A stretch of DNA of 64,000 nt from Prorocentrum cordatum. Taxonomy: Eukaryota > Sar > Dinophyceae > Prorocentrales > Prorocentraceae. The notes under the pieces are model-generated. The model was given only the letters and a program-made list of their open reading frames with translations, was not told where the DNA came from and ran no database searches. The position numbers and the translations under genes are program-made. Each line of letters begins with the position of its first letter. Within the stretch, counting starts at the first letter, position 1. Positions 4,200 to 57,975 of this stretch are shown here, piece by piece. Where the stretch lies: the NCBI GenBank assembly GCA_963575745.1, contig CAUYUJ010018295.1, positions 64,501-128,500 of the forward strand, read 5' to 3'.

Positions 4200-4230
4200 G
4201 AGCTCTACGAGGTTCCCGGCGGTAACCAGG
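4200..4230 (+). repeat. PAL left half, split by LINE-1a
   Basis: GAGCTCTACGAGGTTCCCGG then CGGTAACCAGG, directly followed by the LINE-1a 5' end. The matching right half is at 10265-10311. The bases AACCAGG occur on both sides of the insert (4224-4230 and 10265-10271), consistent with a target-site duplication of up to 7 bp. Confidence 0.85.
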
Positions 4231-4235
4231 GATCT

Positions 4236-4373
4236 CGGCTCAAGACATCTCGGCTCTAGGGCTCCTGGATCCCACAGGAGCTCAGGGGGTGTCGGCGCCG
4301 CGGGGAAGCGGCGCGGCGGCCATCGCTGCCATCGACGAGTACGGCATCTTCCAGGCAAGCCAGGCCGCCTGCT
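4236..4373 (+). promoter_or_regulatory. LINE-1a 5' leader
   Basis: A GC-rich leader with CTCGGCTCTAGGGCTCCTGG and a potential stem formed by GTCGGCGCCGCGGGGAAGCG and the following GCGCGGCGGCC. LINE-1b carries the same leader with only one or two changes. Its first bases, GGCTCAAG, equal the last eight bases of the dinoflagellate spliced leader. An internal promoter would be expected for this class but no motif can be named. Confidence 0.5.
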
Positions 4374-5993
4374 TTGTGTGCTGTATTTGTTGTTGTTTTG
4401 CTTGTCGTGTGTGCAACAACGGACGGGTGCGACTTTTCAATACTTGCTAGACGTTTCCAGCTGGAGGATATTTCCCCGACTGTACCTTATTTGCAGGGCT
4501 CACAGGATTACGCTGTTGAGAGACCAGATTCTGCTGTGGAGAGAGCGTCTCGGAAGAGGCAAATTCAGGATACCGAGCAAATTGTGCGTGACCTTCCACT
4601 GGACGGGAGATTGAATACGGCCGACTCCACACCAGATAGTGATAGTCATTGTGTTGTCCCATCTTCATTTGTGAATATGAATACAGGACTCATGAATATG
4701 ATGCAGACTCCTTCCAACGCAGCTGTGGCGGGAAATACAATCAACGGAGGGCGTGTGGGAGGGGCTCCAGCAGGTCAGGTCAGTCCTGGAGGTCAAGGAT
4801 CTGGAGGCGCTCCTGTTGTTCCTAGAGGCCCAGCTCCACAAGGTGCTCTAGGGGGACCCCCAGGTATGCCCACGGAGGCACAACAAGCGGCGGCCCAAGC
4901 GGCTGTTGTCCCTGAAGGTGCTGGAGAGCGTCAGGGTATGCAGGGCGTTAGCGACGACGCCCAACGAAATGTCAAACATCGTGTCAACGGTCCTCAGGAG
5001 GCACTCTTGGGGGAACTCGAGGAGAAACGAAAGAAACTCAGTGTGGTCTCGGATGAGGCCCCATCCTGGTTCAAGGCCTTCGCGGAGCTCAACGTACTCG
5101 AGAGCAAAGTTAGGCAACAAGAAAACGTCGAAATTAGGGCCGACATTCAGAGCATCTCGAACCGTCAGGAGGCCTCCGACATCAGGATGAACAACTTGGA
5201 ACGACAGATGCAGGACCTCAAGAAGAACCCCAGTGTGATATCAGGTGCTGCCTCGACCACGGCACCTTCCTACGGAGGAGGCCCACCAGGACTCTCGGGA
5301 CCATCCAGCTTCAATCCCAGCTATGTGGAGCTCACAGGCTGGACTGACTGGAACGGGACAGCGGTTACACGTTCGGCCAGTATGATGAGAGACACGGACG
5401 CTGCACAATTCATCACTAATCTGAAGACGGCCATCGCTGCAGAGGATGAAGCTAGGATCGATTACGAGGGCACATTACGTATGAATGGAAGTAGAATGAT
5501 GTTGAGTACGATCAAAATCAAATTCATTGTAGGAACCGACTCTTCGACACTATACAACGTGAAGCGTGCTTTTGATGATGCTCTAACTCCGAATCCCCAG
5601 AGGAATGCGGCTCAGGTTTCGAGGTCACCTCCAGACTATGACAGCATGTTCCAGGGCATGTTACAACGACCCAGTCGGGTCCGAGTACGTATAGAAGCTC
5701 CACCGTGGAAACGCGATCATATCGGAGCTGTGGGACGCTTCTACGGGACATACCGTGAGTGTACCAACAGCGAGGCCATGGAGATCAGGGGGGAGACAGG
5801 ATCGGGACCCAACGGACGGAGCACAATGTGGACCAAGCCGCAGGATCCTCAACATCGACCCGTGGAACTGGCATCCTTTCGTATCAATACGGGGTGGACA
5901 GTGGACCGCGAGATCTGGGAGGGTGTACTTATGCGCAGCGGTGTGACGACGACATACGACACATTTGTTGCGAATCTTGCCGGCAGGGTGTGA
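4374..5993 (+). CDS. LINE-1a ORF1 protein (coiled-coil, putative RNA-binding)
   Basis: An open frame of 539 codons; the first in-frame ATG is at 4677 (residue 102), so either translation starts there (438 aa) or a non-ATG start or upstream exon is used. Residues 120-170 are Gly/Pro-rich, about 213-285 look like a charged coiled coil (LGELEEKRKK to LERQMQDLKK), and about 315-539 form a globular C-terminal part with VELTGWTDWN, VRVRIEAPPW and INTGWTVDREIW. The last three have counterparts in LINE-3 ORF1 (VECKGWVTDWN, IRVSVEVAPW, GWTIRGEI). Coiled coil plus C-terminal domain resembles LINE ORF1 proteins that coat the element RNA, but no named RNA-binding motif is certain. It ends 66 bases before ORF2. 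Confidence 0.85.
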   Translation: MCAVFVVVLLVVCATTDGCDFSILARRFQLEDISPTVPYLQGSQDYAVERPDSAVERASRKRQIQDTEQIVRDLPLDGRLNTADSTPDSDSHCVVPSSFVNMNTGLMNMMQTPSNAAVAGNTINGGRVGGAPAGQVSPGGQGSGGAPVVPRGPAPQGALGGPPGMPTEAQQAAAQAAVVPEGAGERQGMQGVSDDAQRNVKHRVNGPQEALLGELEEKRKKLSVVSDEAPSWFKAFAELNVLESKVRQQENVEIRADIQSISNRQEASDIRMNNLERQMQDLKKNPSVISGAASTTAPSYGGGPPGLSGPSSFNPSYVELTGWTDWNGTAVTRSASMMRDTDAAQFITNLKTAIAAEDEARIDYEGTLRMNGSRMMLSTIKIKFIVGTDSSTLYNVKRAFDDALTPNPQRNAAQVSRSPPDYDSMFQGMLQRPSRVRVRIEAPPWKRDHIGAVGRFYGTYRECTNSEAMEIRGETGSGPNGRSTMWTKPQDPQHRPVELASFRINTGWTVDREIWEGVLMRSGVTTTYDTFVANLAGRV

Positions 5994-6059
5994 CGGTGCA
6001 GAGGTGCCAGTCGGGCTGGTGGCCCCACAGCCCAGCATAGGCTAGGCACCCAGAATCTT

Positions 6060-9000
6060 ATGAAACAAGGGGCTACAGCAGATCGGGGATTTGCTTGCAT
6101 GAGGGCACTTCTTTCTCACGGCTGTGAAGTGTTCTGTTTACAGGAGTGTGAACACTTACCGTCCAAGTCAATTCAGCTACTTGGCTGGCACCTAGTTTAC
6201 TCAAGTGACAGGAAGGCTTCCATAGCTTTGAGGGGGAAGTCTTGTCACAACATAGTTCGTTCTTGGAGTAATCATGCTCGTCTTGCTATGGTGTGCTTGC
6301 GTCATCCGTGTATCTTTCTTGTCTCTGCGTACTTTCCGACCAGATCGGAGAATCGTTCATTGGAGGTGGCTTTTGAGATGCTGAAAACAATCGAAACAAC
6401 TTATCGGAGGTGGAAGGAGGAATGCAGATACACTTGCGAGCTTGTGATTGCAGGGGATTTTAATGTTGAGCTTGCGCCCGACATCACCTGTTCAGGAGGC
6501 ACGGTGACTGGAGGTGCTGTGCAGATTCTCGACGGGAGGGGATATGGGAATGATACGGAGGATAGACGGTGGGAGGAGGACATGTGGCGATCTCAGCTGC
6601 AGGAGTGGCTGTGTCGGATGCGCTTGCTGGCAGTCAATTCCCTTGGCTCGCCGTACTCTCGGCAGCCGACTTTCGTGCATCGTGCGAACAATGCTCGACG
6701 CAAGTCTGGGGCGAAGACTTTTGCGACAAAAGTGCTTGACTATCTCATGGTCCCACAATCCTGGGAGGGTGACTTGGTTGAATGCCGAACGGATTGGATC
6801 CCAGAGACCCCGACTACCAACTTCTCGGATCATGCCTGTGTCTACGCCGAGTTCCATATGCAGAACCCTCAGGTCACGAAATATCAGGGTCCCCCTAGCC
6901 ACCACACAAGCCACAAAGAGTTCCAATCGTATCGGGAGGAGGCCCAATTTCAGGTCCTGGCGGACGTCCAGATCCCGACGGTGCCCCCACAGCGTCTTGC
7001 TGAAACGATTGCTGGTCATGCGTTACCGCTCCTCACGGTGAGGGCCCCCAGGTACTCACGAGGGCTTCCGCCGAGTAGGACTCCCCAGCATGTCGAGCTG
7101 GAGGTACAACTCAGAGAGGCACGTGCTAGGAAGGACAGAGCGTTGGCTCGGGACCTTCGACGTCGCATCAGACCGCTTGCGCGGGAATATCGCCGACGGA
7201 AGGTGGAGTGGGAGGCGCTACCATCTAGGAAGGGGAGGAGGACACGTGTGACGGAGTTGAGGGTGACGGACACTGGGGGAGGGGATACGGGGCCTACGAC
7301 TATGATGACGGAGGACAGGGAACTGTGGGCGGAGGAGGTGGAGCGATATGCTGTGCAGAGTATGACTTGTGATGACTCCAGAGCCCGCAATCGGGAGCTT
7401 GTGTCCACACTGCGTCGCCATGCATCTCAATCAACAGCCTCTTCGGACAACACACTTACGATTACATACTCTACTATTCTGCAGGCGCGGAGCAGGCTCC
7501 GATCAGGACGGGCCTGTGGGCCCGACGGCATCTCGGTTGAACTTCTCAAATCTCTTTCGTGGAGGTCGGTGCGCTCTATCTGTAAGGTTTTCTCTGATAT
7601 ATTCAACGGGCTTCGCCCGACGCCAAGGGAATGGCAGGAGGTATATCTAACACTTATGCCGAAAACGAGCAAACTGGAGACATTGCGACAAACAAGGAAC
7701 CTGCTTGTTGGAAATACCTTGGCCAAGTGGTATCTCACGTGTGTGACGATTTTACTGGAACGATGTGTGGAACCCTTCATGAGTGATATGGCGATTTACG
7801 GTTTTACCAGCGGACGACGCTGCTGGGAGATTTCATCGGCCATGAAATGTATTGCACAACATGCTTCCACATGGGGGCGAGATCAAACGGCGTGGCTCCT
7901 CAGCTGTGACATCGAGCGGGCGTTCGACGCTGTGACGTTGCCGACAGTCTCGAGAGCGATGACGGCCCTTGGGATCAGTGCACGGTTACAGTATGCGTTA
8001 TTGGAGCCTCTCTCATCTACATCATGCACGGTGCTGTTTGAAGGAGTGACAATCCCTAACGTGCAATGGGATAGGTCGCTCCGTACTGGGGGTACCGAAT
8101 CACCGATCGCGTTTACCATTGTCACTATTGCTATGTGGCGGGATGTGATTGCTCGCCTGGACCAGCGCGGCGTCGGAGTCGAGATGCCATGCCATGATGA
8201 TCATTGCCGGTATGCACGTTGGAATCGCGCACTCTGGGCTGACAATATTTTTCTGGCCGCCAAGTCAGCATCGGAGGCGCAGTTAGCGGCCGCAGCCTTC
8301 ACTACTGCTCTCAGGGATTGGGGGATGGAGTGGAAGGAGGAGAGTCTAGAGATGATGGTGTGTGGTACTCAGTGCACTGACACGGTCACGGTTCAGATTG
8401 GCTCGCGGATTGTTCCTTTCAAGCATGTTGACAGTTTGAATGTGCTGGGGTATCAGATTCCCAGGAGTTTCACTTCTATTCACGCGGATGTGCAGGAACG
8501 CGTCCAGCAGGCCCGAAGGGCATTCTTTGCGCAGGTACAATACTTTACGTGCAGGGCGTTGCCTCTGGTGAAGAAGTTTCGTCGATATCAATCGACTGTG
8601 CAGAGACGCCTTTTATATGCAGCAGAGGCCATCACGATTGACAGTGAGTGTGTGAGGGTTATCCATGCGTTCGAGGGTATGTGTCTTCTGAGAATGTCAG
8701 GGAGGAGGAAGCCAGGAGATGTGGGGTGGGAGGTTTGGCGGCCAGCTGCACTGACACGAGTCAGGACAATCTTCTGCGATGGGGGTTTCCCGTCGGCTGT
8801 GCAGATGCTGTGTTGGAAGAGCTGGGGCATGATGCGCTCCACGAGGCAATATTTACTATCCTTGGAGGAGGACAGGACGGCAAGGACGGAGGTGGAGGTG
8901 GAGGGATCAACGACTCAACGTGCTAAACGTGTCCGCTTTACGGATGGACGTGGGGAGGATATACCTGCTGCGACTGTGATGGAGGTGGAGGGGAGGATTA

Positions 9001-10322
9001 CGGACATGGAGAGGAGGCTGGAGGATCTCTGCTCGCAGGTCGCCTGTTCCATTGCCCGCTCACAGCCGATGCCCTGTGGGGAGGGAGCTGCCCACACTCT
9101 CAGAGACGAGCCGCTTGCCGTCTCAAAGGGGAGGAGGGCCTTTCGAGACTCCCGACGGGCGCTTATGATGTACAATGTTGGCTGGGTCACGGCTCGCGAC
9201 ACAATAACAGAGGTTCCACGACAACACGGCAACAGGGCCTTATCTAGTTCGGGCAAACGGCTTCGTGGAGGCCCTGTGTCTGTGGGCGGACGGTCTTGGC
9301 AGTTCCCATACATTCAGTTCTTTGGGGAAAAGTGGTGGGAGTCTGTACGGGGTGATTGGGTTCAATTCTTGGAGGTATGGAAGCAACTCCTTATACAATA
9401 CAACAAATCTAAGGTCTATGACTACTTTGTGGTGTCTTGGAAGGGCTCTCCTAATGGACCTCGAGGCTCCCCTGAGGCTCGTGAGAAGGCCGATACCGAG
9501 ATGGTCGATACCGCGACCAACCCTCTGCACCCCAAGTATGACCCCAAAGAGTCTGACAAGCTTGCAATACGATATGCGATGATCCAGGAACGTGCGACTG
9601 TGTGGGACATATCGTCAGAGGGTTTTGCTGCTGAGTTCAAGGGTGACTCACTACTTATCTGCTCCTGGCTCCAGGGTAAATGGAGATGTGAGAATCGTGG
9701 CTACTGCAAGAGGACAGCTGCCATGATTGATTGTACCTTTGAGCTTGCTGCGTGTTTCAATCTGAGGCCTGCTGCCTTGGGACGTGAGATATGGAGGCAC
9801 GAATTCAGGGAGGACAATACACGAGCGGATGAATTGACGCATGAGGCCAGATGTGGCCGCACATTCTACAGAACTCATTGTTATCTATATCCATTCGAAA
9901 CTTATCTCGTACCGTTCGCTATCAGGGGAGGCTTTGATGGCGGGGTTGACCAGCAAGGATCAGGATGTGGTTTCTGGCTTCAGATCGGCTTAATCAATAC
10001 TCAGTGCAATCCCAGTGAGATAGGCATCGCTTCCGCGAGAACCGTGGGCCCCTTCCCTGCTGGGCATGAGTTTGCTGTTTCTAGTGCCGTGCCCCTCGTT
10101 TGGAGGGATGTGGCCGAGGCCGCGTGGCTCCTCGAAGGAGCTACAGTCACAGAATGTGAATTGTCGGCAGCCGAAGCGCTGCTTAGCGCTGCCCGTGTGC
10201 TTCTGCGGGACCGGTCCTCGCCCAGCTGCACTCAGCTGGGAACGCGAGTCCAAACAAACAAACAAACCAGGTTGACGGTTTACCGCTGGTTCCCAGTAAC
10301 TCGTAGAGCTCCCCTTAGCTAG
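6060..10322 (+). CDS. LINE-1a ORF2: APE endonuclease, reverse transcriptase, permuted RNase H
   Basis: 1420 codons from ATG 6060. The N-terminal APE-type endonuclease shows LQE (28-29), AGDFN (131-135), KVLDYLM (224-230) and SDH (256-258). The reverse transcriptase shows GPDGIS (487-492), PKTSKLETLRQTRNL (534-548), motif A CDIERAFD (D617), GGTESP (677-682) and motif C ALWADN (724-729), which keeps only the first catalytic aspartate of YADD. The C-terminus carries RNase H motifs in rotated order: KGDSLLICSW (D1196), HEFREDNTRADEL (H1247, D1257), then FDGGVDQQGSGCGFW (D1293) and TECELSAAEALL (E1367). The element itself supplies no stop: the frame runs through the CAAA tail into PAL and stops at TAG 10320. 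It would nick the target, prime reverse transcription and may remove RNA. Confidence 0.93.
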   Translation: MKQGATADRGFACMRALLSHGCEVFCLQECEHLPSKSIQLLGWHLVYSSDRKASIALRGKSCHNIVRSWSNHARLAMVCLRHPCIFLVSAYFPTRSENRSLEVAFEMLKTIETTYRRWKEECRYTCELVIAGDFNVELAPDITCSGGTVTGGAVQILDGRGYGNDTEDRRWEEDMWRSQLQEWLCRMRLLAVNSLGSPYSRQPTFVHRANNARRKSGAKTFATKVLDYLMVPQSWEGDLVECRTDWIPETPTTNFSDHACVYAEFHMQNPQVTKYQGPPSHHTSHKEFQSYREEAQFQVLADVQIPTVPPQRLAETIAGHALPLLTVRAPRYSRGLPPSRTPQHVELEVQLREARARKDRALARDLRRRIRPLAREYRRRKVEWEALPSRKGRRTRVTELRVTDTGGGDTGPTTMMTEDRELWAEEVERYAVQSMTCDDSRARNRELVSTLRRHASQSTASSDNTLTITYSTILQARSRLRSGRACGPDGISVELLKSLSWRSVRSICKVFSDIFNGLRPTPREWQEVYLTLMPKTSKLETLRQTRNLLVGNTLAKWYLTCVTILLERCVEPFMSDMAIYGFTSGRRCWEISSAMKCIAQHASTWGRDQTAWLLSCDIERAFDAVTLPTVSRAMTALGISARLQYALLEPLSSTSCTVLFEGVTIPNVQWDRSLRTGGTESPIAFTIVTIAMWRDVIARLDQRGVGVEMPCHDDHCRYARWNRALWADNIFLAAKSASEAQLAAAAFTTALRDWGMEWKEESLEMMVCGTQCTDTVTVQIGSRIVPFKHVDSLNVLGYQIPRSFTSIHADVQERVQQARRAFFAQVQYFTCRALPLVKKFRRYQSTVQRRLLYAAEAITIDSECVRVIHAFEGMCLLRMSGRRKPGDVGWEVWRPAALTRVRTIFCDGGFPSAVQMLCWKSWGMMRSTRQYLLSLEEDRTARTEVEVEGSTTQRAKRVRFTDGRGEDIPAATVMEVEGRITDMERRLEDLCSQVACSIARSQPMPCGEGAAHTLRDEPLAVSKGRRAFRDSRRALMMYNVGWVTARDTITEVPRQHGNRALSSSGKRLRGGPVSVGGRSWQFPYIQFFGEKWWESVRGDWVQFLEVWKQLLIQYNKSKVYDYFVVSWKGSPNGPRGSPEAREKADTEMVDTATNPLHPKYDPKESDKLAIRYAMIQERATVWDISSEGFAAEFKGDSLLICSWLQGKWRCENRGYCKRTAAMIDCTFELAACFNLRPAALGREIWRHEFREDNTRADELTHEARCGRTFYRTHCYLYPFETYLVPFAIRGGFDGGVDQQGSGCGFWLQIGLINTQCNPSEIGIASARTVGPFPAGHEFAVSSAVPLVWRDVAEAAWLLEGATVTECELSAAEALLSAARVLLRDRSSPSCTQLGTRVQTNKQTRLTVYRWFPVTRRAPLS
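10251..10267 (+). repeat. LINE-1a 3' tail, CAAA units
   Basis: About four CAAA units end the element, a short-tandem tail typical of non-LTR elements that do not end in poly(A). The LINE-1b tail is identical. The frame of ORF2 passes through it, so a change in unit number would shift the frame at the C-terminus. Confidence 0.85.
10265..10311 (+). repeat. PAL right half, 3' flank of LINE-1a
   Basis: AACCAGGTTGACGG, TTTACCGCTGGTTCCCAGT and then AACTCGTAGAGCTC. With the left half at 4200-4230 this rebuilds a normal PAL including both outer CTCGTAGAGCTC-type arms. It supplies the last codons and the region of the stop codon of LINE-1a ORF2. Confidence 0.85.
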
Positions 10323-16214: not shown

Positions 16215-16782
16215 GTGATTGAGTGATTGCACATGCTTCTGTTTGTGTTTCTCCCCCACTCTTCCCCGCTGTTTTGCCCCTGGGTTCGCTTTGGCTCTTT
16301 GGGCTTCTCCCGCTCTCCCGCTGGCTTTCCTTCCGCTCTCCGCTGGCAGGTCTCATAAGTGGATTTGTTACGCTCTCTTTGCTTACATTTGATGTTCAAT
16401 TCATTCCTTATTCTTTGTTGCATTCACGTCAGTTCAGTGACCTTTGAACGTGACTTTCCGTGATTTGTCACGTGGTGCCTCAAAGTAGGCCTTTGATCTA
16501 GTCGACACTACACTGCTTTTACTTTCAGTGGTGCTGAGACGGTAATCGCTATATGTGGTTACTGCATGGTCTCGCACTGCTTTGCTTCCCTCTTTCTATG
16601 TTTATTTGTCTTCTCGTGTATTGGCAGTTTTGTGCATATCTGTACAGCTTCGCTGTTTGATGCACCTCTGCTTTGATCTTTGCAGCTTCGCTGTCTTCCT
16701 GTACAGCTTCGCTGTTTAGGTTCTTTGTGTTTAGGCCTGCTCCCATGGGGGCTCGAATTGGCCTTCGCAAAAGACGCAAAAG
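16215..16782 (+). other. Element B 3' untranslated end
   Basis: The last 255 bases match element A's end. GTACAGCTTCGCTGT is present one extra time (about 16640 and 16697). The tail is again CGCAAAAGACGCAAAAGACC. The first part (16220-16520) has no match in A. Confidence 0.7.
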
Positions 16783-16813
16783 ACCAGGTTGACGGTTCAC
16801 CGCCGGCGCCAGT
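16782..16813 (+). repeat. PAL right half, 3' flank of element B
   Basis: GACCAGGTTGACGG then TTCACCGCCGGCGCCAGT, completing the left half at 10711-10740. The 6.05 kb between the halves are elements A and B. Confidence 0.85.
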
Positions 16814-26689: not shown

Positions 26690-26710
26690 GAGCTCTACGA
26701 GGGTCCCGGC
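26690..26710 (+). repeat. PAL left arm, 5' flank of LINE-1b
   Basis: GAGCTCTACGAGGGTCCCGG then C. Compared with an empty PAL, about ten bases (CGGTAACC region) are missing before the LINE-1b start, suggesting a small target deletion at the 5' junction. The right half is at 38716. Confidence 0.75.
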
Positions 26711-29700
26711 TCAAGACATCTCGGCTCTAGGGCTCCTGGATCCCACGGGAGCTCAGGGGGTGTCGGCGCCGCGGGGAAGCGGCGCGGCGGCCATCGCTGC
26801 CATCGACGAGTACGGCATCTTCCAGGCAAGCCAGGCCGCCTGCTTTGTGTGCTGTATTTGTTGTTGTTTTGCTTGTCGTGTGTGCAACAACGGACGGGTA
26901 CGACTTTTCAATGCTTGCTAGACGTTTCCAGCTGGAGGATATTTCCCCGACTGTACCTTATTTGCAGGGCTCACAGGATTACGCTGTTGAGAGACCAGAT
27001 TCTGCTGTGGAGAGAGCGTCTCGGAAGAGGCAAATTCAGGATACCGAGCAAATTGTACGTGACCTTCCACTGGACGGGAGATTGAATACGGCCGACTCCA
27101 CACCAGATAGTGATAGTCATTGTGTTGTCCCATCTTCATTTGTGAATATGAATACAGGACTCATGAATATGATGCAGACTCCTTCCAACGCAGCTGTGGC
27201 GGGAAATACAATCAACGGAGGGCGTGTGGGAGGGGCTCCAGCAGGTCAGGTCAGTCCTGGAGGTCAAGGATCTGGAGGCGCTCCTGTTGTTCCTAGAGGC
27301 CCAGCTCCACAAGGTGCTCTAGGGGGACCCCCAGGTATGCCCACGGAGGCACAACAAGCGGCGGCCCAAGCGGCTGTTGTCCCTGAAGGTGCTGGAGAGC
27401 GTCAGGGTATGCAGGGCGTTAGCGACGACGCCCAACGAAATGTCAAACATCGTGTCAACGGTCCTCAGGAGGCACTCTTGGGGGAACTCGAGGAGAAACG
27501 AAAGAAACTCAGTGTGGTCTCGGATGAGGCCCCATCCTGGTTCAAGGCCTTCGCGGAGCTCAACGTACTCGAGAGCAAAGTTAGGCAACAAGAAAACGTC
27601 GAAATTAGGGCCGACATTCAGAGCATCTCGAACCGTCAGGAGGCCTCCGACATCAGGATGAACAACTTGGAACGACAGATGCAGGACCTCAAGAAGAACC
27701 CCAGTGTGATATCAGGTGCTGCCTCGACCACGGCACCTTCCTACGGAGGAGGCCCACCAGGACTCTCGGGACCATCCAGCTTCAATCCCAGCTATGTGGA
27801 GCTCACAGGCTGGACTGACTGGAACGGGACAGCGGTTACACGTTCGGCCAGTATGATGAGAGACACGGACGCTGCACAATTCATCACTAATCTGAAGACG
27901 GCCATCGCTGCAGAGGATGAAGCTAGGATCGATTACGAGGGCACATTACGTATGAATGGAAGTAGAATGATGTTGAGTACGATCAAAATCAAATTCATTG
28001 TAGGAACCGACTCTTCGACACTATACAACGTGAAGCGTGCTTTTGATGATGCTCTAACTCCGAATCCCCAGAGAAATGCGGCTCAGGTTTCGAGGTCACC
28101 TCCAGACTATGACAGCATGTTCCAGGGCATGTTACAACGACCCAGTCGGGTCCGAGTACGTATAGAAGCTCCACCGTGGAAACGCGATCATATCGGAGCT
28201 GTGGGACGCTTCTACGGGACATACCGTGAGTGTACCAACAGCGAGGCCATGGAGATCAGGGGGGAGACAGGATCGGGACCCAACGGACGGAGCACAATGT
28301 GGACCAAGCCGCAGGATCCTCAACATCGACCCGTGGAACTGGCATCCTTTCGTATCAATACGGGGTGGACAGTGGACCGCGAGATCTGGGAGGGTGTACT
28401 TATGCGCAGCGGTGTGACGACGACATACGACACATTTGTTGCGAATCTTGCCGGCAGGGTGTGACGGTGCAGAGGTGCCAGTCGGGCTGGTGGCCCCACA
28501 GCCCAGCATAGGCTAGGCACCCAGAATCTTATGAAACAAGGGGCTACAGCAGATCGGGGATTTGCTTGCATGAGGGCACTTCTTTCTCACGGCTGTGAAG
28601 TGTTCTGTTTACAGGAGTGTGAACACTTACCGTCCAAGTCAATTCAGCTACTTGGCTGGCACCTAGTTTACTCAAGTGACAGGAAGGCTTCCATAGCTTT
28701 GAGGGGGAAGTCTTGTCACAACATAGTTCGTTCTTGGAGTAATCATGCTCGTCTTGCTATGGTGTGCTTGCGTCATCCGTGTATCTTTCTTGTCTCTGCG
28801 TACTTTCCGACCAGATCGGAGAATCGTTCATTGGAGGTGGCTTTTGAGATGCTGAAAACAATCGAAACAACTTATCGGAGGTGGAAGGAGGAATGCAGAT
28901 ACACTTGCGAGCTTGTGATTGCAGGGGATTTTAATGTTGAGCTTGCGCCCGACATCACCTGTTCAGGAGGCACGGTGACTGGAGGTGCTGTGCAGATTCT
29001 CGACGGGAGGGGATATGGGAATGATACGGAGGATAGACGGTGGGAGGAGGACATGTGGCGATCTCAGCTGCAGGAGTGGCTGTGTCGGATGCGCTTGCTG
29101 GCAGTCAATTCTCTTGGCTCGCCGTACTCTCGGCATCCGACTTTCGTGCATCGTGCGAACAATGCTCGACGCAAGTCTGGGGCGAAGACTTTTGGGACAA
29201 AAGTGCTTGACTATCTCATGGTCCCACAATCCTGGGAGGGTGACTTGGTTGAATGCCGAACGGATTGGATCCCAGAGACCCCGACTACCAACTTCTCGGA
29301 TCATGCCTGTGTCTACGCCGAGTTCCATATGCAGAACCCTCAGGTCACGAAATATCAGGGTCCCCCTAGCCACCACACAAGCCACAAAGAGTTCCAATCG
29401 TATCGGGAGGAGGCCCAATTTCAGGTCCTGGCGGACGTCCAGATCCCGACGGTGCCCCCGCAGCGTCTTGCTGAAACGATTGCTGGTCATGCGTTACCGC
29501 TCCTCACGGTGAGGGCCCCCAGGTACTCTCGAGGGCTTCCGCCGAGTAGGACTCCCCAGCATGTCGAGCTGGAGGTACAACTCAGAGAGGCACGTGCTAG
29601 GAAGGACAGAGCGTTGGCTCGGGACCTTCGACGTCGCATCAGACCGCTTGCGCGGGAATATCGCCGACGGAAGGTGGAGTGGGAGGCGCTACCATCTAGG

Positions 29701-32700
29701 AAGGGGAGGAGGACACGTGTGACGGAGTTGAGGGTGACGGACACTGGGGGAGGGGATACGGGGCCTACGACTATGATGACGGAGGACAGGGAACTGTGGG
29801 CGGAGGAGGTGGAGCGATATGCTGTGCAGAGTATGACTTGTGATGACTCCAGAGCCCGCAATCGGGAGCTTGTGTCCACACTGCGTCGCCATGCATCTCA
29901 ATCAACAGCCTCTTCGGACAACACACTTACGATTACATACTCTACTATTCTGCAGGCGCGGAGCAGGCTCCGATCAGGACGGGCCTGTGGGCCCGACGGC
30001 ATCTCGGTTGAACTTCTCAAATCTCTTTCGTGGAGGTCGGTGCGCTCTATCTGTAAGGTTTTCTCTGATATATTCAACGGGCTTCGCCCGACGCCAAGGG
30101 AATGGCAGGAGGTATATCTAACACTTATGCCGAAAACGAGCAAACTGGAGACATTGCGACAAACAAGGAACCTGCTTGTTGGAAATACCTTGGCCAAGTG
30201 GTATCTCACGTGTGTGACGATTTTACTGGAACGATGTGTGGAACCCTTCATGAGTGATATGGCGATTTACGGTTTTACCAGCGGACGACGCTGCTGGGAG
30301 ATTTCATCGGCCATGAAATGTATTGCACAACATGCTTCCACATGGGGGCGAGATCAAACGGCGTGGCTCCTCAGCTGTGACATCGAGCGGGCGTTCGACG
30401 CTGTGACGTTGCCGACAGTCTCGAGAGCGATGACGGCCCTTGGGATCAGTGCACGGTTACAGTATGCGTTATTGGAGCCTCTCTCATCTACATCATGCGC
30501 GGTGCTGTTTGAAGGAGTGACAATCCCTAACGTGCAATGGGATAGGTCGCTCCGTACTGGGGGTACCGAATCACCGATCGCGTTTACCATTGTCACTATT
30601 GCTATGTGGCGGGATGTGATTGCTCGCCTGGACCAGCGCGACGTCGGAGTCGAGATGCCATGCCATGATGATCATTGCCGGTATGCACGTTGGAATCACG
30701 CACTCTGGGCTGACAATATTTTTCTGGCCGCCAAGTCAGCATCGGAGGCGCAGTTAGCGGCCACAGCCTTCACTACTGCTCTCAGGGATTGGGGGATGGA
30801 GTGGAAGGAGGAGAGTCTAGAGATGATGGTGTGTGGTACTCAGTACACTGACACGGTCACGGTTCAGATTGGCTCGCGGATTGTTCCTTTCAAGCATGTT
30901 GACAGTTTGAATGTGCTGGGGTATCAGATTCCCAGGAGTTTCACTTCTGTTCACACGGATGTGCAGGAGCGCGTCCAGCAGGCCCGAAGGGCATTCTTTG
31001 CGCAGGTGCAATACTTTACGTGCAGGGCGTTGCCTCTGGTGAAGAAGTTTCGTCGATATCAATCGACTGTGCAGAGCCGCCTTTTATATGCAGCAGAGGC
31101 CATCACGATTGACAGTGAGTGTGTGAGGGTTATCCATGCGTTCGAGGGTATGTGTCTTCTGAGAATGTCAGGGAGGAGGAAGCCAGGAGATGTGGGGTGG
31201 GAGGTTTGGCGGCCAGCTGCACTGACACGAGTCAGGACAATCTTCTGCGATGGGGGTTTCCCGTCGGCTGTGCAGATGCTGTGTTGGAAGAGCTGGGGCA
31301 TGGTGCGCTCCACGAGGCAATATTTACTATCCTTGGAGGAGGACAGGACGGCAAGGACGGAGGTGGAGGTGGAGGGATCAGCGACTCAACGTGCTAAACG
31401 TGTCCGCTTTACGGATGGACGTGGGGAGGATGTACCTGCTGCGACTGTGATGGAGGTGGAGGGGAGGATTACGGACATGGAGAGGAGGCTGGAGGATCTC
31501 TGCTCGCAGGTCGCCTGTTCCATTGCCCGCTCACAGCCGATGCCCTGTGGGGAGGGAGCTGCCCACACTCTCAGAGACGAGCCGCTTGCCGTCTCAAAGG
31601 GGAGGAGGGCCTTTCGAGACTCCCGACGTGCGCTTATGATGTACAATGTTGGCTGGGTCACGGCTCGCGACACAATAACAGAGGTTCTACGACAACACGG
31701 CAACAGGGCCTTATCTAGTTCGGGCAAACGGCTTCGTGGAGGCCCTGTGTCTGTGGGCGGACGGTCTTGGCAGTTCCCATACATTCAGTTCTTTGGGGAA
31801 AAGTGGTGGGAGTCTGTACGGGGTGATTGGGTTCAATTCTTGGAGGTATGGAAGCAACTCCTTATACAATACAACAAATCTAAGGTCTATGATTACTTTG
31901 TGGTGTCTTGGAAGGGCTCTCCTAATGGACCTCGAGGCTCCCCTGAGGCTCGTGAGAAGGCCGATACTGAGATGGTCGATACCGCGACCAACCCTCTGCA
32001 CCCCAAGTATGACCCCAAAGAGTCCGACAAGCTTGCAATACGATATGCGATGATCCAGGAACGTGCGACTGTGTGGGACATATCGTCAGAGGGTTTTGCT
32101 GCTGAGTTCAAGGGTGACTCACTACTTATCTGCTCCTGGCTCCAGGGTAAATGGAGATGTGAGAATCGTGGCTACTGCAAGAGGACAGCTGCCATGATTG
32201 ATTGTACCTTTGAGCTTGCTGCGTGTTTCAATCTGAGGCCTGCTGCCTTGGGACGTGAGATATGGAGGCACGAATTCAGGGAGGACAATACACGAGCGGA
32301 TGAATTGACGCATGAGGCCAGATGTGGCCGCACATTCTACAGAACTCATTGTTATCTATATCCATTCGAAACTTATCTCGTACCGTTCGCTATCAGGGGA
32401 GGCTTTGATGGCGGGGTTGACCAGCAAGGATCAGGATGTGGTTTCTGGCTTCAGATCGGCTTAATCAATACTCAGTGCAATCCCAGTGAGATAGGCATCG
32501 CTTCCGCGAGAACCGTGGGCCCCTTCCCTGCTGGGCATGAGTTTGCTGTTTCTAGTGCCGTGCCCCTCGTTTGGAGGGATGTGGCCGAGGCCGCGTGGCT
32601 CCTCGAAGGAGCTACAGTCACAGAATGTGAATTGTCGGCAGCCGAAGCGCTGCTTAGCGCTGCCCGTGTGCTTCTGCGGGACCGGTCCTCGCCCAGCTGC

Positions 32701-32737
32701 GCTCAGCTGGGAACGCGAGTCCAAACAAACAAACAAA
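26707..32737 (+). mobile_element. LINE-1b, full-length non-LTR retrotransposon
   Basis: Second copy of LINE-1a. Both ORFs are full length. About 13-14 amino-acid differences were noted in ORF2 (for example QPTF to HPTF, TFAT to TFGT, WNRALW to WNHALW) and two in ORF1, with no frame damage. Near-identity with no indel over 6 kb implies recent transposition or recent duplication or conversion. The 3' tail is the same CAAA run and is followed by CCTGGTTG of PAL and then LINE-3. The two copies have different outer flanks, which favours separate insertion over block duplication. Confidence 0.93.
26845..28464 (+). CDS. LINE-1b ORF1 protein (coiled-coil, putative RNA-binding)
   Basis: 539 codons, same architecture as 4374-5993. 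It differs at residue 19 (Tyr for Cys) and residue 23, where ATA of LINE-1a is ATG here (26911), giving an in-frame start 79 codons upstream of the ATG shared by both copies. Whether the N-terminal 100 residues are translated is therefore open. Stop TGA at 28462, then 66 bases to ORF2. Confidence 0.85.
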   Translation: MCAVFVVVLLVVCATTDGYDFSMLARRFQLEDISPTVPYLQGSQDYAVERPDSAVERASRKRQIQDTEQIVRDLPLDGRLNTADSTPDSDSHCVVPSSFVNMNTGLMNMMQTPSNAAVAGNTINGGRVGGAPAGQVSPGGQGSGGAPVVPRGPAPQGALGGPPGMPTEAQQAAAQAAVVPEGAGERQGMQGVSDDAQRNVKHRVNGPQEALLGELEEKRKKLSVVSDEAPSWFKAFAELNVLESKVRQQENVEIRADIQSISNRQEASDIRMNNLERQMQDLKKNPSVISGAASTTAPSYGGGPPGLSGPSSFNPSYVELTGWTDWNGTAVTRSASMMRDTDAAQFITNLKTAIAAEDEARIDYEGTLRMNGSRMMLSTIKIKFIVGTDSSTLYNVKRAFDDALTPNPQRNAAQVSRSPPDYDSMFQGMLQRPSRVRVRIEAPPWKRDHIGAVGRFYGTYRECTNSEAMEIRGETGSGPNGRSTMWTKPQDPQHRPVELASFRINTGWTVDREIWEGVLMRSGVTTTYDTFVANLAGRV

Positions 32738-32874
32738 CCTGGTTGCCTCCCTCCTCTGGGGTCTGGCGGCTGGGGGCTCCCGTTTGGGGCTCTCGTCTCG
32801 AGCGGCATTGTGCCGTGCTGCTTTGTTTGGTTCTCATTACCGTACACGGCCTGTGTATCGTACGTGCTCATTGA
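28531..32874 (+). CDS. LINE-1b ORF2: APE endonuclease, reverse transcriptase, permuted RNase H
   Basis: 1447 codons from ATG 28531. All motifs of the LINE-1a protein are kept: LQE, GDFN, SDH, GPDG, CDIERAFD, ALWADN, then the permuted RNase H with GDSLLICSW, HEFREDNTRADEL, FDGGVDQQGSGCG and TECELSAAEALL. The element part ends at the CAAA tail (VQTNKQT). Beyond it the frame reads into LINE-3 sequence (WLPPSSGVWRLGAPVWGS) and stops at TGA 32872, so the last 40 or so residues are foreign and differ from those of LINE-1a. This confirms that the element has no stop codon of its own in this frame. Confidence 0.92.
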   Translation: MKQGATADRGFACMRALLSHGCEVFCLQECEHLPSKSIQLLGWHLVYSSDRKASIALRGKSCHNIVRSWSNHARLAMVCLRHPCIFLVSAYFPTRSENRSLEVAFEMLKTIETTYRRWKEECRYTCELVIAGDFNVELAPDITCSGGTVTGGAVQILDGRGYGNDTEDRRWEEDMWRSQLQEWLCRMRLLAVNSLGSPYSRHPTFVHRANNARRKSGAKTFGTKVLDYLMVPQSWEGDLVECRTDWIPETPTTNFSDHACVYAEFHMQNPQVTKYQGPPSHHTSHKEFQSYREEAQFQVLADVQIPTVPPQRLAETIAGHALPLLTVRAPRYSRGLPPSRTPQHVELEVQLREARARKDRALARDLRRRIRPLAREYRRRKVEWEALPSRKGRRTRVTELRVTDTGGGDTGPTTMMTEDRELWAEEVERYAVQSMTCDDSRARNRELVSTLRRHASQSTASSDNTLTITYSTILQARSRLRSGRACGPDGISVELLKSLSWRSVRSICKVFSDIFNGLRPTPREWQEVYLTLMPKTSKLETLRQTRNLLVGNTLAKWYLTCVTILLERCVEPFMSDMAIYGFTSGRRCWEISSAMKCIAQHASTWGRDQTAWLLSCDIERAFDAVTLPTVSRAMTALGISARLQYALLEPLSSTSCAVLFEGVTIPNVQWDRSLRTGGTESPIAFTIVTIAMWRDVIARLDQRDVGVEMPCHDDHCRYARWNHALWADNIFLAAKSASEAQLAATAFTTALRDWGMEWKEESLEMMVCGTQYTDTVTVQIGSRIVPFKHVDSLNVLGYQIPRSFTSVHTDVQERVQQARRAFFAQVQYFTCRALPLVKKFRRYQSTVQSRLLYAAEAITIDSECVRVIHAFEGMCLLRMSGRRKPGDVGWEVWRPAALTRVRTIFCDGGFPSAVQMLCWKSWGMVRSTRQYLLSLEEDRTARTEVEVEGSATQRAKRVRFTDGRGEDVPAATVMEVEGRITDMERRLEDLCSQVACSIARSQPMPCGEGAAHTLRDEPLAVSKGRRAFRDSRRALMMYNVGWVTARDTITEVLRQHGNRALSSSGKRLRGGPVSVGGRSWQFPYIQFFGEKWWESVRGDWVQFLEVWKQLLIQYNKSKVYDYFVVSWKGSPNGPRGSPEAREKADTEMVDTATNPLHPKYDPKESDKLAIRYAMIQERATVWDISSEGFAAEFKGDSLLICSWLQGKWRCENRGYCKRTAAMIDCTFELAACFNLRPAALGREIWRHEFREDNTRADELTHEARCGRTFYRTHCYLYPFETYLVPFAIRGGFDGGVDQQGSGCGFWLQIGLINTQCNPSEIGIASARTVGPFPAGHEFAVSSAVPLVWRDVAEAAWLLEGATVTECELSAAEALLSAARVLLRDRSSPSCAQLGTRVQTNKQTWLPPSSGVWRLGAPVWGSRLERHCAVLLCLVLITVHGLCIVRAH
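32738..32745 (+). repeat. PAL-centre remnant between LINE-1b and LINE-3
   Basis: CCTGGTTG, part of the PAL centre, sits between the LINE-1b tail and the LINE-3 start. Compare the ACCAGGTTGACG remnant between elements A and B. Confidence 0.65.
32788..32865 (+). promoter_or_regulatory. 5' region shared by LINE-3 and element A
   Basis: CTCGAGCGGCATTGTGCCGT, then TTTGGTTCTC, then TACCGTACACGG, in the same order as 10755-10806 in element A. Conservation between a LINE and a non-autonomous element outside coding sequence suggests a promoter or packaging signal. The exact function is not visible. Confidence 0.5.
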
Positions 32875-34573: not shown

Positions 34574-37500
34574 ATGAAAGGGGCGGATGTGACACTCCTG
34601 GGGGTACAAGAGTGTCAAAATCTTTGGGATCGTCGTTCTGAGCTGTCAGGTTCGGGTGAAGGTGCTATTCGCGCGATTTTTGATAGCTCCCGCAAGGTTG
34701 CCATCCTGTATAAGGATAATTGGCGGAAGCACCGCCTTGCTACGTTGAAGGGGGAAGGTTACGTTGCCATAGGATTTACGACGGTCACGGTTGTTTCGTG
34801 CTATTTGCCCAATGCTGAGGATGTGACGTTGAGGAGTGATGACATTACGAATGAGAAGTTTCAGAACATTATATATAATTTGAGTGAGGCCCTGGAGAAC
34901 TATTTCCACAGGTACCCTAGGAGGCCCCAGAAGGTGGTGTTGCTCACGGATGCCAGCGTGGAACTGTCGCCAGATACGAGCTGTAACGGTCTACAACTTA
35001 CGGGGAGGGATTGCTGGAATCAGCTCTGGTCTACTCGGGTGGGGCATCACGTGTGCGTTGGAGGAGGAGGGAGGCAATGAAGGAGGCGCTTCTTCAGTTC
35101 TGTGGGAGGCGGAGGATTGTGATGGCCACATTTGGACCCAGGAGGCCTACTTGGATCCCGTCGGGTCTTGGGGCTCCCAGTGTCTTGGACTATATTGGGT
35201 AACCCGGTGCACAGTCGGAGGCGGGGGTCAAATTCATCCAACCACTGGGGGCGACGGCGCTGACTGCGGTATCGGATCATGCTCTGTTACACGCCACATT
35301 ACCATGTGCTCCGACGGGTGTGCGCAGGCAGAAGCCGAAGGCGACGAGGGCCTCCAATCTGGTCCACTGGGCTCCCGAGGATCCTTAGGCTTACGCACGG
35401 GGGGCGGAGATTGCTTTCACCGCGTACGGGGCAATTCCTGTCAGGTCTGCTGCCACGACGCCTGATGAGGGCTGGGAGCTGGTCAGCCGTTCCCATCCTC
35501 GTGTGGCGCGCCAGCTTAGGACCGTGGTGGAGGAGGAGGATAACAGCACGGACAGTACGGAGACTATGATGGAGGACTTGGAGGAGTGGGAGGAGGTGGA
35601 GGATGTGACGACGCAGAGCGTTCAGGCGGTGGGTTCACCCACTTGTGAAGGCGAATCCATAAATACGGCGATTGTGTCGGCGGCCAGTCTCGCACCCCAT
35701 GCACAGGGGCGACAGGTCCAACGCCCCAAGAAGCCAGAGCAGTTGTGGAGGATGGAGGAGGAAATGAAACAGCTCAGGAGAGAAAGGAGGTGGGAGGACT
35801 GCAAGCAGTTACGACGGCGGTGCCGACCTGCGAAGAGGAAGTGCCGGGCTGAACTGGTCAGGTTTCAATTTACCAGGGAAGGACGGAGTAAACGTACACA
35901 CAATCAGGTGTTGGAGGTGGTTCAGGGGGACGGTGGTATTCATAGATCTGAGGACTTGGAGGAGTGGGAGGCGGAGATCGGACGGTTTGCATGTGCCACT
36001 ATTCAATGCGAGGAGGCTCGCAGGGCTAGTGCACAGACGTTGGAGACGGCGAGGTGTGCAGCAGCGGCCTCGCATCGGACACTAGACATTCGCATGTCCC
36101 TGGTGTTGCGAGCTCGTGCGCGACTCAAGAGGGGAGGAGCAGCGTCATGCGATGACGTGTCGCCCGAAATGCTCAAGTTGCTTCCTTGGGCGTGTGTGCG
36201 CCGTGTACGTGACTTCTTTCAGCGCCTGGCCTGTCGGGGGAATCTCACGCCGCAGTGCTGGAGAAAATTCCTTGTCACTCTGATCCCGAAAAGCCCCCAA
36301 ATGACCGAACTCAAAGACGCTAGAAACATATGCCTCATACCTCTTATGTCCAAATGGTACAGCCTGTGTCTCACTATACTTGCGGAGGAATAGTTAACAA
36401 AGCTCCGACCTCATACGTGCTTGTTCGGCTTTGCGGCAGGTAGGAAACCACATGAAATTACGGCGGTACTCAAGAGGCTCTCACAGCACGCGTGTCTCTG
36501 GGGCAAAGGGGAATCATTATATCTTGAGAGTGCAGACGTACTACAGTGCTTTGACCATGTGACGTTGACGTTGGCGTATAACAGCCTTGTATCATTGGGG
36601 TTCCCCTCGGAGCTCATATTTGCCCTCTTGGAGCCCATGCGTGAGAACGTGTGTCAGATGTCCTTTGAAGGTGTGCGGTGGACGGATTGGGTGTCTTGGG
36701 ATAGGAGTATTCGCACGGGAGGAGTGGAGGGCCTCTTCTTGTTCAAGGCTGTCTCGGTGTATCTATGGGAGAAGGTGGTACGGCAGTGGGAGGAGAACGA
36801 CTATGGTTATGAATTGGAGACCCCCTTGAGTGGAGGTAGGAGGAGGATTGCACATGCTCTGTGGGCGGACAATTTGTACGTGTGTGCACGGTCCCTGGAC
36901 GAACTTCGGGAGATGATGTCTATGCTCACGGTGCCGTTGGCTCAGGCGGGCCTGCGGTGGAAACCCTCATCGCTTGGATACCTCTTGTGTGGAGGCTGGC
37001 CTCGCTGTTCTGATACCGAGCTTCGCGTGTGGGTGCCTGAGTATGGTGAGGAGTTGGTCCTGCCACGTCTTCGTCAGATGTCAGCTCTGGGAGTGGAACT
37101 CTTTGATGACTGGAGTGAGCAGCGGGACTCTGTCCTTTACAGCGTGCCAGGCGTGCGTGGATGTGTGATGTGCAGTTCTATCGCTGTAGACAGTTACCTA
37201 TGCGTGATCGTTGTATGCGTTACATTGCACGGGTGCAGTCCATTGTATTGTATGCATGTGAAGGTATGACGGCGGATGAGGGTACCATTCAGAAGTTATA
37301 TGCGTGGGAGGGTCAACTGCTGGCGATCATAGGTGATCTTCGTAAGAAGGCGAGTGAGGGCTGGACTGTGTGTACTCAGAGGCGGCTGCGCTATGGTCGC
37401 CATCATTTTGCTAGGTACGGCTTCCAATCATTGGTCCAAAGATTTCTCAGAAAGCAGTTTGGCTGGGCAAAAGATGTGGCATCGTTCGCTTGTATGCATA

Positions 37501-38680
37501 CGTGTGCACCTATGTTAACGCCCGCGTCGGGGGGGGAGGCGCATGCCAATCGGCGTCAGCGTACGGGGATCTCCCGTGAGACGGTGCGGGGCCAACGACA
37601 GAGGCTCTCGACCACCCAGCCTGGTGAGGCTCCGACACCAGCACCACCTGTGTCGGATGACATGTCAAGACTCTTTGTTCTTTCACGTGTTGCGATGCTG
37701 CATGGATTGGGGGAGTGGGCGGAGAGGGGGGATGCTATGATTGCTGCAAGTGGGAGGAGGACGGAGATAACCAGACTAACAGGGAGGAGGTTACCTAGAG
37801 GCTACAGGCCGTGGGACTTCCTATTTGCGCAGGCTGCTGGTGTGAATTGGTGGCGCCATCTCGACTGGAGTGAACATGGTTTTCGCGAGTTTGCTACGGC
37901 CCGACTGTGTGCGGCGGGATTTTCACATATGACGGAGGGCTTTATCTTTAAGGAGGAGGGAGGTCAGGTACACAGAGAGGAGGAGGAGGAGGACAAACAG
38001 TATACACAGGCAGCGCTTGATCGTATTGCCAGGCGCCTCGCAGCAAACTTTGAAAGTGAGGTCCGCTTCGAGCGACGAGGCGGAGTTGCGATGGAGCTGC
38101 TGGGCGACTCCATGCTGATAACCAACTGGATGAGGGGAAGGTGGACTTGCAACAGCAATATATGCCGATCGCAGGTGGGGGAGGTTATTGATATGTTAGA
38201 CGACGCCTCTCGAAATTTTAAGCTGCAGGGCCCAGCCACAGGATATGATTTGTGGCGTCATCACTATCGTGAAGGCAATGACCGTGCCGACCGACTGACT
38301 TGGGAAATCAGACATCTACCATTACAATCGAGGTACAGAAGCATTCAACAACATAAAAACAATACTGAACATTGATCGCAATCCGTGGTGCGTACGACGG
38401 TGGCGTTAGCAGTGCAGGTGCTGGGGGAGGATGGTGGCTAGACGGTGAGTTCATCAGTGAGCAATCTGGGGAGGGGGTCTGTGATTGCCTGCGCACGTTT
38501 ACCCGTCCGTTGGCGGAGGAGGCTTTTGGCCTGCTTCCCGATGCGACGGTTACTCAGTGTGAGCTTGAGGCCGCCTCGAGACTTGCCCGCTCTGCTTGCG
38601 AGATACTTCAAGAGTATCACGTTTTTCAGGGTACATCCAGCCCACAGGGGATGGCTGCGCCAACCCGACCGCCCTTGTAG
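34574..38680 (+). pseudogene. LINE-3 ORF2 remnant: endonuclease, reverse transcriptase, permuted RNase H
   Basis: A decayed ORF2 that can be followed through frame changes near 35000, 37150 and 38365 and through in-frame stops at about 35176 (TAA), 35387 (TAG) and 36391 (TAG). The endonuclease keeps VQECQ and SDHALL (about 35270) but GDFN has become TDAS. RT: PKSPQMTELKDARNI (about 36288), motif A SADVLQCFDHV, RTGGVEG and motif C ALWADN (about 36856). RNase H motifs again come rotated: GDSMLITNWMRGRW (38105), HHYREGNDRADRL (about 38262-38296), then YDGGVSSAGAGGGWW (38395) and TQCELEAASRLA (38561). A proper stop (TAG 38678) precedes the tail, unlike LINE-1. It cannot make a functional protein as read. 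Confidence 0.85.
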
Positions 38681-38715
38681 GGCCCCGTGGTCGGACCGCA
38701 AACCGCAAAACAAAT

Positions 38716-38745
38716 CTGGTTGACGGTTTACCGCCGGCTCCCAGT
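38716..38745 (+). repeat. PAL right half, 3' flank of LINE-3
   Basis: CTGGTTGACGG, TTTACCGCCGGCTCCCAGT. With the left arm at 26690 it brackets about 12.0 kb of stacked LINE-1b and LINE-3. Confidence 0.85.
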
Positions 38746-39481
38746 TGCTCTCCGGGCTTTGGTCGCTACCAAGTGGATGCTACTAAGTGGGCGCTTCGAA
38801 TGGCCGACCCGGCCCGGGCGGACAATGTGTCAACCTGGACTACCTCGTAGAGCTCTTCGGCATCGATGAGCTAGAGGAATTCCGGCGCGGGGTGGAGCTA
38901 GTTGGCCGACCCGGCCGAGGCGGGCAAAGTGGTAACTTTCAGTCGGTTTTGCTAAGATTTGAAAGATATTCCCGGAAAGCTCTCTGAGAGCTATAGGGTT
39001 TCAGATTAGAAGCCGGACGGTGGTGGTGCCCGCCAGCAGCCCATCTTCGCCGGTCTAGAATCCCTGCAGCGGCTCGTTTGGGGTCGCAGCCCGTCCGGGA
39101 GAGCTTCCGGCGCGCGTCCACGCGTACCTGCACGCGTGCAGGCGCGCATGGAAGCGTGTCTGGCAGCGCTTCCGAAGCGCTTCAGGGGAGCCCCCCAGAG
39201 CTCTCCAGGCAAGATTCCGTCCCCGAGGGTCTCTTCGCTCTCCGGGTTTTGGACGCTACCAAGTTTGACCATTCATTCTAAGAAACCAGATTTTTCGCAC
39301 CTGTAGTGGGTTAGGCCGCGTCCGCCAGTCAATTTCTCAGGTCCGTAGGTGCAGTATTACTATCAAAAGACTTGGCGGAACCTTCTTTAGATAAAAACAT
39401 AAAAACGTGATTTTTCGAGTTTTTTCGGGTCTTGCTCCAGACACTTCCTTTATGTGTACCGAGGAGCGCCGTGAGAGAAAA
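38746..39481 (+). repeat. Mosaic of R300 end, R125, R300 and R290
   Basis: A short piece with CTCTCCGGGCTTTGGTCGCT (R300 end), R125 at 38841-38965 (CCTCGTAGAGCTCTTCGGCA, CGATGAGCTAGAGGAATTCC), R300 at 38969-39262 and R290 at about 39265-39481 starting TTTGACCATTCATTCTAAGA. R300 here follows R125 at the word TTTGAAAGATATTCCCGGAA, the same junction as 49070-49090, so R125-R300 also spread as a composite. Confidence 0.75.
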
Positions 39482-57919: not shown

Positions 57920-57975
57920 TTTTGACGCACCCGAGTCCAGCAGGTCCAAGTGTGTCTTTGCTGCTGTTGGTTACC

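Follow-up and report, generated by a model that had tools for sequence, protein, structure and literature searches.

A probable circularly permuted, archaeal-like RNase H domain at the C-terminus of ORF2 in a LINE lineage

Retroelements are classified with the help of marker domains. RNase H is one of these, and it is identified by the way in which its motifs follow one another. What is to be made, then, of a retroelement in which the motifs are present in another order? We have met this situation in a stretch of 64,000 nucleotides of contig CAUYUJ010018295.1 (positions 64,501 to 128,500; Prorocentrum cordatum assembly GCA_963575745.1), referred to below as the window, and specifically in the second open reading frame (ORF2) of LINE-1a, a long interspersed nuclear element (LINE). 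The ORF2 protein of LINE-1a is called P0001 here and its database relatives carry names from P0003 to P0026. Our analysis makes it very likely that, in this LINE lineage, ORF2 ends at its C-terminus in a single archaeal-like RNase H domain, circularly permuted. Judged from its sequence, the domain is homologous to RNase H and probably also has the activity of one, although it fails the order that defines the fold. Its four acids would form one two-metal active site. This would mean that a well-known enzyme has been rewired in nature, with the halves swapped and both fold and catalytic residues seemingly kept.

Motif order and layout of the domain

The canonical order of the fold is strand 1-2-3, helix A, strand 4, helix B, strand 5, helix E. 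The LINE domain does not follow it, running instead from strand 4 to helix E (the second half of RNase H, hereafter B) and then through a linker into strands 1-3 and helix A (the first half, A). Along the ORF2 of both LINE-1a and LINE-1b the motifs come as GDS (D1196), RAD (D1257), DGG (D1293) and CEL (E1367), the first being part of KGDS and the third of FDGG in LINE-1a, where H1247 is also found. The first-pass annotation of this DNA had proposed the permuted order with D1196, H1247, D1257, D1293 and E1367, and these residue numbers are correct in P0001. The linker of about 35 residues that it gave is in fact one of 22 (1265-1286), 36 being the separation between D1257 and D1293. It had also seen no ordinary first half upstream, and this stands: over the whole protein the family profile of A matched P0001 solely at 1285-1379, in two pieces flanking a long insert, with no first half found upstream of B, and the family profile of B gave a single match at 1186-1264.

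H1247 lies 10 residues before the last aspartate, a spacing that we take to match that of H124 in the E. coli enzyme. The same distance is found in 3u3g, and R1250 lies 7 residues before D1257. The fourth position of D-E-D-H-D may, from the sequence, be served by R1250 as well as by H1247; an R at this distance is not universal among the relatives (K in P0005, P in P0010). Throughout the LINE family, strand 4 is preceded by a conserved helix. We considered whether it is a relic of a lost helix A, and found nothing that decides the matter.

The order in LINE-1b is indeed the same, as had been pointed out before, though only 2 codons differ between the two elements over residues 1158-1400. LINE-1b is a near-identical copy of LINE-1a (99.5% identity over 6050 bp, between the shared part of LINE-1a at 4225-10274 and 26697-32745) and adds no independent support. 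A third, divergent LINE of the window has B and A in the same order, 65 nt apart compared with 66 nt in LINE-1a. Its joined tblastn matches to ORF2 extend over 35725-38758 (27-35% identity, E 1e-97), with a weaker piece at 34595-35005 (25% identity). The window is repeat-rich and several LINE copies are present, as would suit a swapped order produced by assembly error or by rearrangement of repeats within the window. However, this divergent LINE has the identical order, as do proteins from metagenomes and from EukProt, and we give such an artefact practically no credence.

Relatives, predicted structure and rotation tests

A profile of the halves of LINE-1a and the third LINE, in native order, was used to score 7997 candidates and retrieved 25 related proteins (E 5e-101 to 4e-9), 11 of them labelled EukProt Pyramimonas sp. 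AAC.1, one from ncbi and 13 from ena or jgi. Counting motifs, we find RAD followed by DGG within one protein in 17 of the 25, and A before B in none. All four motifs, with the catalytic acids D, E, D and D, are present in six of those 17 (P0004, P0006, P0012, P0015, P0016 and P0023), as they are in LINE-1a, in LINE-1b and in the two pieces of the third LINE. P0003 and P0007 begin too late to include GDS but have the other motifs. The E motif is missing from nine: P0005, P0008, P0013, P0017, P0022 and P0026 end early or shortly past strand 2 (P0008 covers also part of the region after the reverse transcriptase, RT), but the sequence of P0009, P0014 and P0018 continues without it. The remaining eight comprise five with B only, two with A only and P0010 without the end of B. 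Altogether 19 of the 25, mostly fragments, lack one or more motifs. Wherever relatives cover the four acids in alignable sequence these are conserved, with the exception of P0010, where the end of the second half is lost. Other searches gave nothing comparable: a protein search with residues 1100-1400 of P0001 returned none of 4810 candidates at E <= 1, the whole ORF2 none of 7988 at E <= 1e-3, viral contigs scanned with P0001, the B and A profiles and one further family profile yielded no relative, and tblastn against plasmids gave a single match at E 0.4.

These proteins bear on a different explanation, according to which an RNase H was once duplicated and the two halves are what is left of it, unable now to make one domain in cis, the activity being lost or arising only through exchange of halves between two ORF2 molecules. 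The separate frames of the two halves in the third LINE speak for it, and so does the comparison of LINE-1a and LINE-1b, where the 24 codon differences over residues 1-1400 of ORF2 are 15 non-synonymous and 9 synonymous, hence no constraint in that pair. But the third LINE is frameshifted elsewhere as well, and the frame of P0017, close to it, is open across the linker, indicating that intact relatives of the third LINE exist. The four acids are moreover kept at 28-54% identity among the six complete relatives, and a confident model of P0015 makes one domain of both halves in one chain. With these data a pair of relics appears improbable to us.

The model of P0015 comes from AlphaFold2, run on a 21-row alignment led by this protein (mean predicted local distance difference test score, pLDDT, 82; predicted template modelling score, pTM, 0.75). 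Both halves were modelled with high confidence as one domain, and the order of strands and helices is the one expected if an RNase H is cut open ahead of strand 4. The four acids of P0015 are D95, D155, D189 and E231. Structure prediction had been proposed earlier as a check on LINE-1a, and the permuted order was recovered in this relative, which is 33% identical to the LINE-1a region; the model of LINE-1a itself, from a 4-row alignment, had a pLDDT of 37. In a fold search, positions 78-173 of the P0015 model (the second half) gave a tentative match to archaeal-like RNase HI. That the domain has some other alpha/beta fold, for example a CinA-like one, and that its halves resemble RNase H by chance, we hold to be very improbable indeed. 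The top row in a viral fold library was a pithovirus Ribonuclease H at E 0.025, which is not significant. PelC- and CinA-like rows of the fold search, of low identity and at noise level, were set aside.

The permutation was also examined by rotating the sequences and comparing them with two RNase HI profiles, a phage/E. coli type (57 distinct sequences from 80 loci, plus E. coli) and an archaeal type (at most 59 sequences from 80 loci, plus S. tokodaii), sequences outside set lengths being left out of both. The members used were P0001 and the six complete relatives. With the family alignment, the archaeal type gave scores of 64.3 for B alone (E 1.2e-11), 64.6 for the native order and 72.6 for the rotated one, in which columns 39-147 matched 28-124 of the profile and strand 1 was a separate weak piece. 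Against the phage/E. coli type, the four acids came into register in the rotated alignment, which matched end to end (10-148 on 10-141); the native one matched in two out-of-order pieces. When the columns of A were shuffled, the scores were reached in 4/200 and 18/200 trials for the two profiles, and a start equally far N-terminal in 5/200 and 0/200.

The check by rotated profile search that had been suggested for this domain came out in its favour for the archaeal type: all seven single proteins scored higher rotated than native (Table 1), and higher than a length-matched control with the same halves in native order and no linker. Rotated P0023, P0015 and P0016 matched in one stretch, from 3-5 to 120-122 of the archaeal profile, and in their native form in two out-of-order stretches, the second scoring below zero; rotated P0023 reached E 5.6e-10 over positions 5-122, in a search of 14 sequences. 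The rotated match of the other four covers only part of the profile. Rotation exceeded B alone in five of the seven, P0006 and P0012 being the two where it did not. With the phage/E. coli profile the rotated form was above the native in six of seven, with one tie, and above the length-matched control in five, with one tie and one loss (LINE-1a).

Table 1. Scores of single proteins against the archaeal profile, and number of trials out of 1000 with shuffled A residues that reached the observed value
Protein	Rotated (bits)	Native (bits)	Shuffled trials, archaeal	Shuffled trials, phage/E. coli
P0023	29.2	18.9	3	13
P0015	24.1	15.5	1	0
P0016	23.7	16.5	3	0
P0006	17.3	15.0	99	19
P0001 (LINE-1a)	15.1	6.0	2	364
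P0004	14.2	9.4	11	1000
P0012	8.2	5.9	4	70

Some of these results tell against a permuted domain. Against the phage/E. coli type the family alignment scored 25.1 with B alone, 22.2 in native order and 23.8 when rotated, that is, rotation did not rise above B alone. At the level of sequence, the rotation signal is clear in the compact members. Phage/E. coli RNase HI gives a weaker signal, and in LINE-1a itself it is weak. The long insert between strands 2 and 3 of LINE-1a probably dilutes it.

Pfam bore the rotation out in part. Under the curated Pfam cut-off of 21.6 bits for RVT_3, P0015 scored 18.6 native and 21.2 rotated and P0006 11.9 and 15.6, all below it, and LINE-1a, P0004, P0012 and P0023 had no RVT_3 match in either order. 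Rotated LINE-1a as a single sequence had no RNase H match in Pfam or the PDB. Two-row profiles searched against PDB sequences found 5 matches when rotated and 9 with B alone, three in each case being RNase H, all at E 0.08 or worse and with homoserine kinase at the top of both lists; A alone found no match. Taken as a whole, the circular permutation put forward in the first-pass annotation is supported by the third LINE, 17 of the 25 relatives, the P0015 model and the rotation tests.

Known enzymes and a possible origin

To our knowledge, human L1 has no RNase H domain. Its ORF2p RT (8uw3, 8sxt and 9k6g) provides the best solved relatives of the LINE-1a RT, with E 1.6e-8 to 5.6e-8 among the five sequences listed. 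By profile, half B is like archaeal-like RNase HI (S. tokodaii 2ehg/3aly, Halobacterium 4e19, LC11-RNase H1 4h8k and RNase H 3u3g; Pfam RVT_3), and the LINE domain shares with this group the R seven residues before the last aspartate and the four conserved acids. It differs in its swapped halves and new linker, and in native sequences that stay under the Pfam cut-off. Archaeal-like RNase H, in which R replaces the H of D-E-D-H-D, has been described from L1 of plants and from Utopia LINEs of oomycetes (PMC4640811). Like LINE-1a, these are LINEs with an RNase H having R at the H position; the accessible part of that paper mentions no permuted order, and Utopia has its RNase H upstream of the RT, whereas that of LINE-1a comes after it. 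Going solely by the Pyramimonas label of relatives, the host of the LINE lineage is probably a green alga (Pyramimonadales, Chlorophyta). A plant-lineage host would fit.

The first-pass annotation knew of no published permuted RNase H in LINEs, and we found none in open-licence PMC papers. There is, however, a 2025 preprint, CIRPIN (PMC12667903), in which a structure comparison within AFDB clusters brought out two Ribonuclease H-like domains related by permutation. The pair and the LINE family are alike in being circular permutations within Ribonuclease H-like domains. In the accessible part of the preprint the proteins of the pair are unnamed and the word 'retrotransposon' is absent from the main text, so that identity with the LINE family cannot be judged.

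The permuted chain would begin at strand 4, pass through strand 5 and helix E and, after a linker of about 22 residues by which the old termini would be easily joined, continue into strands 1-3 and helix A. Strand 4, not strand 1, would thus be placed beside the RT-proximal chain. Once target-primed reverse transcription has produced an RNA-DNA hybrid, the domain would strip the RNA from it, a task also assumed for the RNase H domains of other LINEs. Such a domain would arise most simply if it was duplicated in tandem and the two outer halves were then lost; no intermediate of this route was found. With some reserve, we favour a LINE lineage, probably of pyramimonadalean green algae, descended from one element with a permuted archaeal-like RNase H, in which the enzyme works and has been kept to a divergence of about 30% identity, fixing a different RT-RNase H geometry. 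If true, this would be a naturally selected permutant of a classic model enzyme.

The LINE family would then offer a natural permutant series in which to ask where RNase H must sit relative to the RT, and by what routes mobile elements acquire circular permutations and retain them. Since the permuted form escapes Pfam and is barely detected by a sequential fold search, LINEs apparently without RNase H may still have one.

Elements and repeats of the window

The coordinates of the LINEs and their domains are collected in Table 2. The ORF2 of LINE-1a has an RT of LINE type (RVT_1 in Pfam, 44.6 bits, E 1.7e-11), with LINE-1 ORF2p (E 3.1e-8) among the top PDB matches. Its N-terminus may be an apurinic-type endonuclease, with weak matches to Exo_endo_phos (E 0.13, below the cut-off) and to exodeoxyribonuclease III (E 0.68), and a GDFN motif spotted by eye.

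Table 2. LINE features located in the window
Feature	Position	Strand	Remarks
LINE-1a ORF2	6060..10322	+	1420 aa; RT at residues 566-800
Conserved stretch before strand 4	9540..9614	+	corresponds to helix 57-76 in P0015 model
RNase H half B	9615..9851	+	residues 1186-1264; D1196, H1247, R1250, D1257
Linker, old C-terminus to old N-terminus	9852..9917	+	residues 1265-1286
RNase H half A	9918..10208	+	residues 1287-1383; D1293, E1367
LINE-1b ORF2	28531-32874	+	1447 aa
Probable permuted RNase H domain of LINE-1b	32086..32679	+	
Third, divergent LINE	34595..38758	+	ORF2 interrupted by frameshifts and stops
Half B, third LINE	38013..38312	+	
Half A, third LINE	38378..38602	+	different frame from B, 65 nt after B

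Inside the shared element the ORF2 of LINE-1a and LINE-1b has no stop (10209-10322 and 32680-32874); the frame crosses the CAAA-repeat tail and its stop is supplied by the flanking DNA, different in each copy. The stop of the third LINE, unlike theirs, is located before the tail. LINE-1a and the third LINE terminate at copies of a short repeat, GGTTGACGGTTTACCGC (4200-4230, 10251-10290 and 38718), which has 23 matches in the window when up to 3 substitutions are allowed, and the other half of the repeat (GAGCTCTACGAGG...CGGTAACC) is found at the 5' end of LINE-1a. From their sequence these ends look like insertion into a specific site, and CCAGG, which flanks LINE-1a on both sides, is a possible target-site duplication. 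At 16740-16790 a tail-like sequence, GCAAAAGACGCAAAAGACC, stands immediately before a copy of the GGTTGACGGTTTACCGC repeat and may mark where another retroelement has its 3' end.

Between 17786 and 25114 a 160-bp tandem repeat forms three arrays, the third interrupted, which alternate with purine-rich low-complexity stretches; arrays and stretches together make up a larger block repeated about three times. Rfam gave 0 matches. Nine ORF stretches were put to Pfam, and the sole match at E <= 0.01 was a Core-2/I-Branching enzyme domain (PF02485, E 1.8e-18) in the ORF at 57922-59484.
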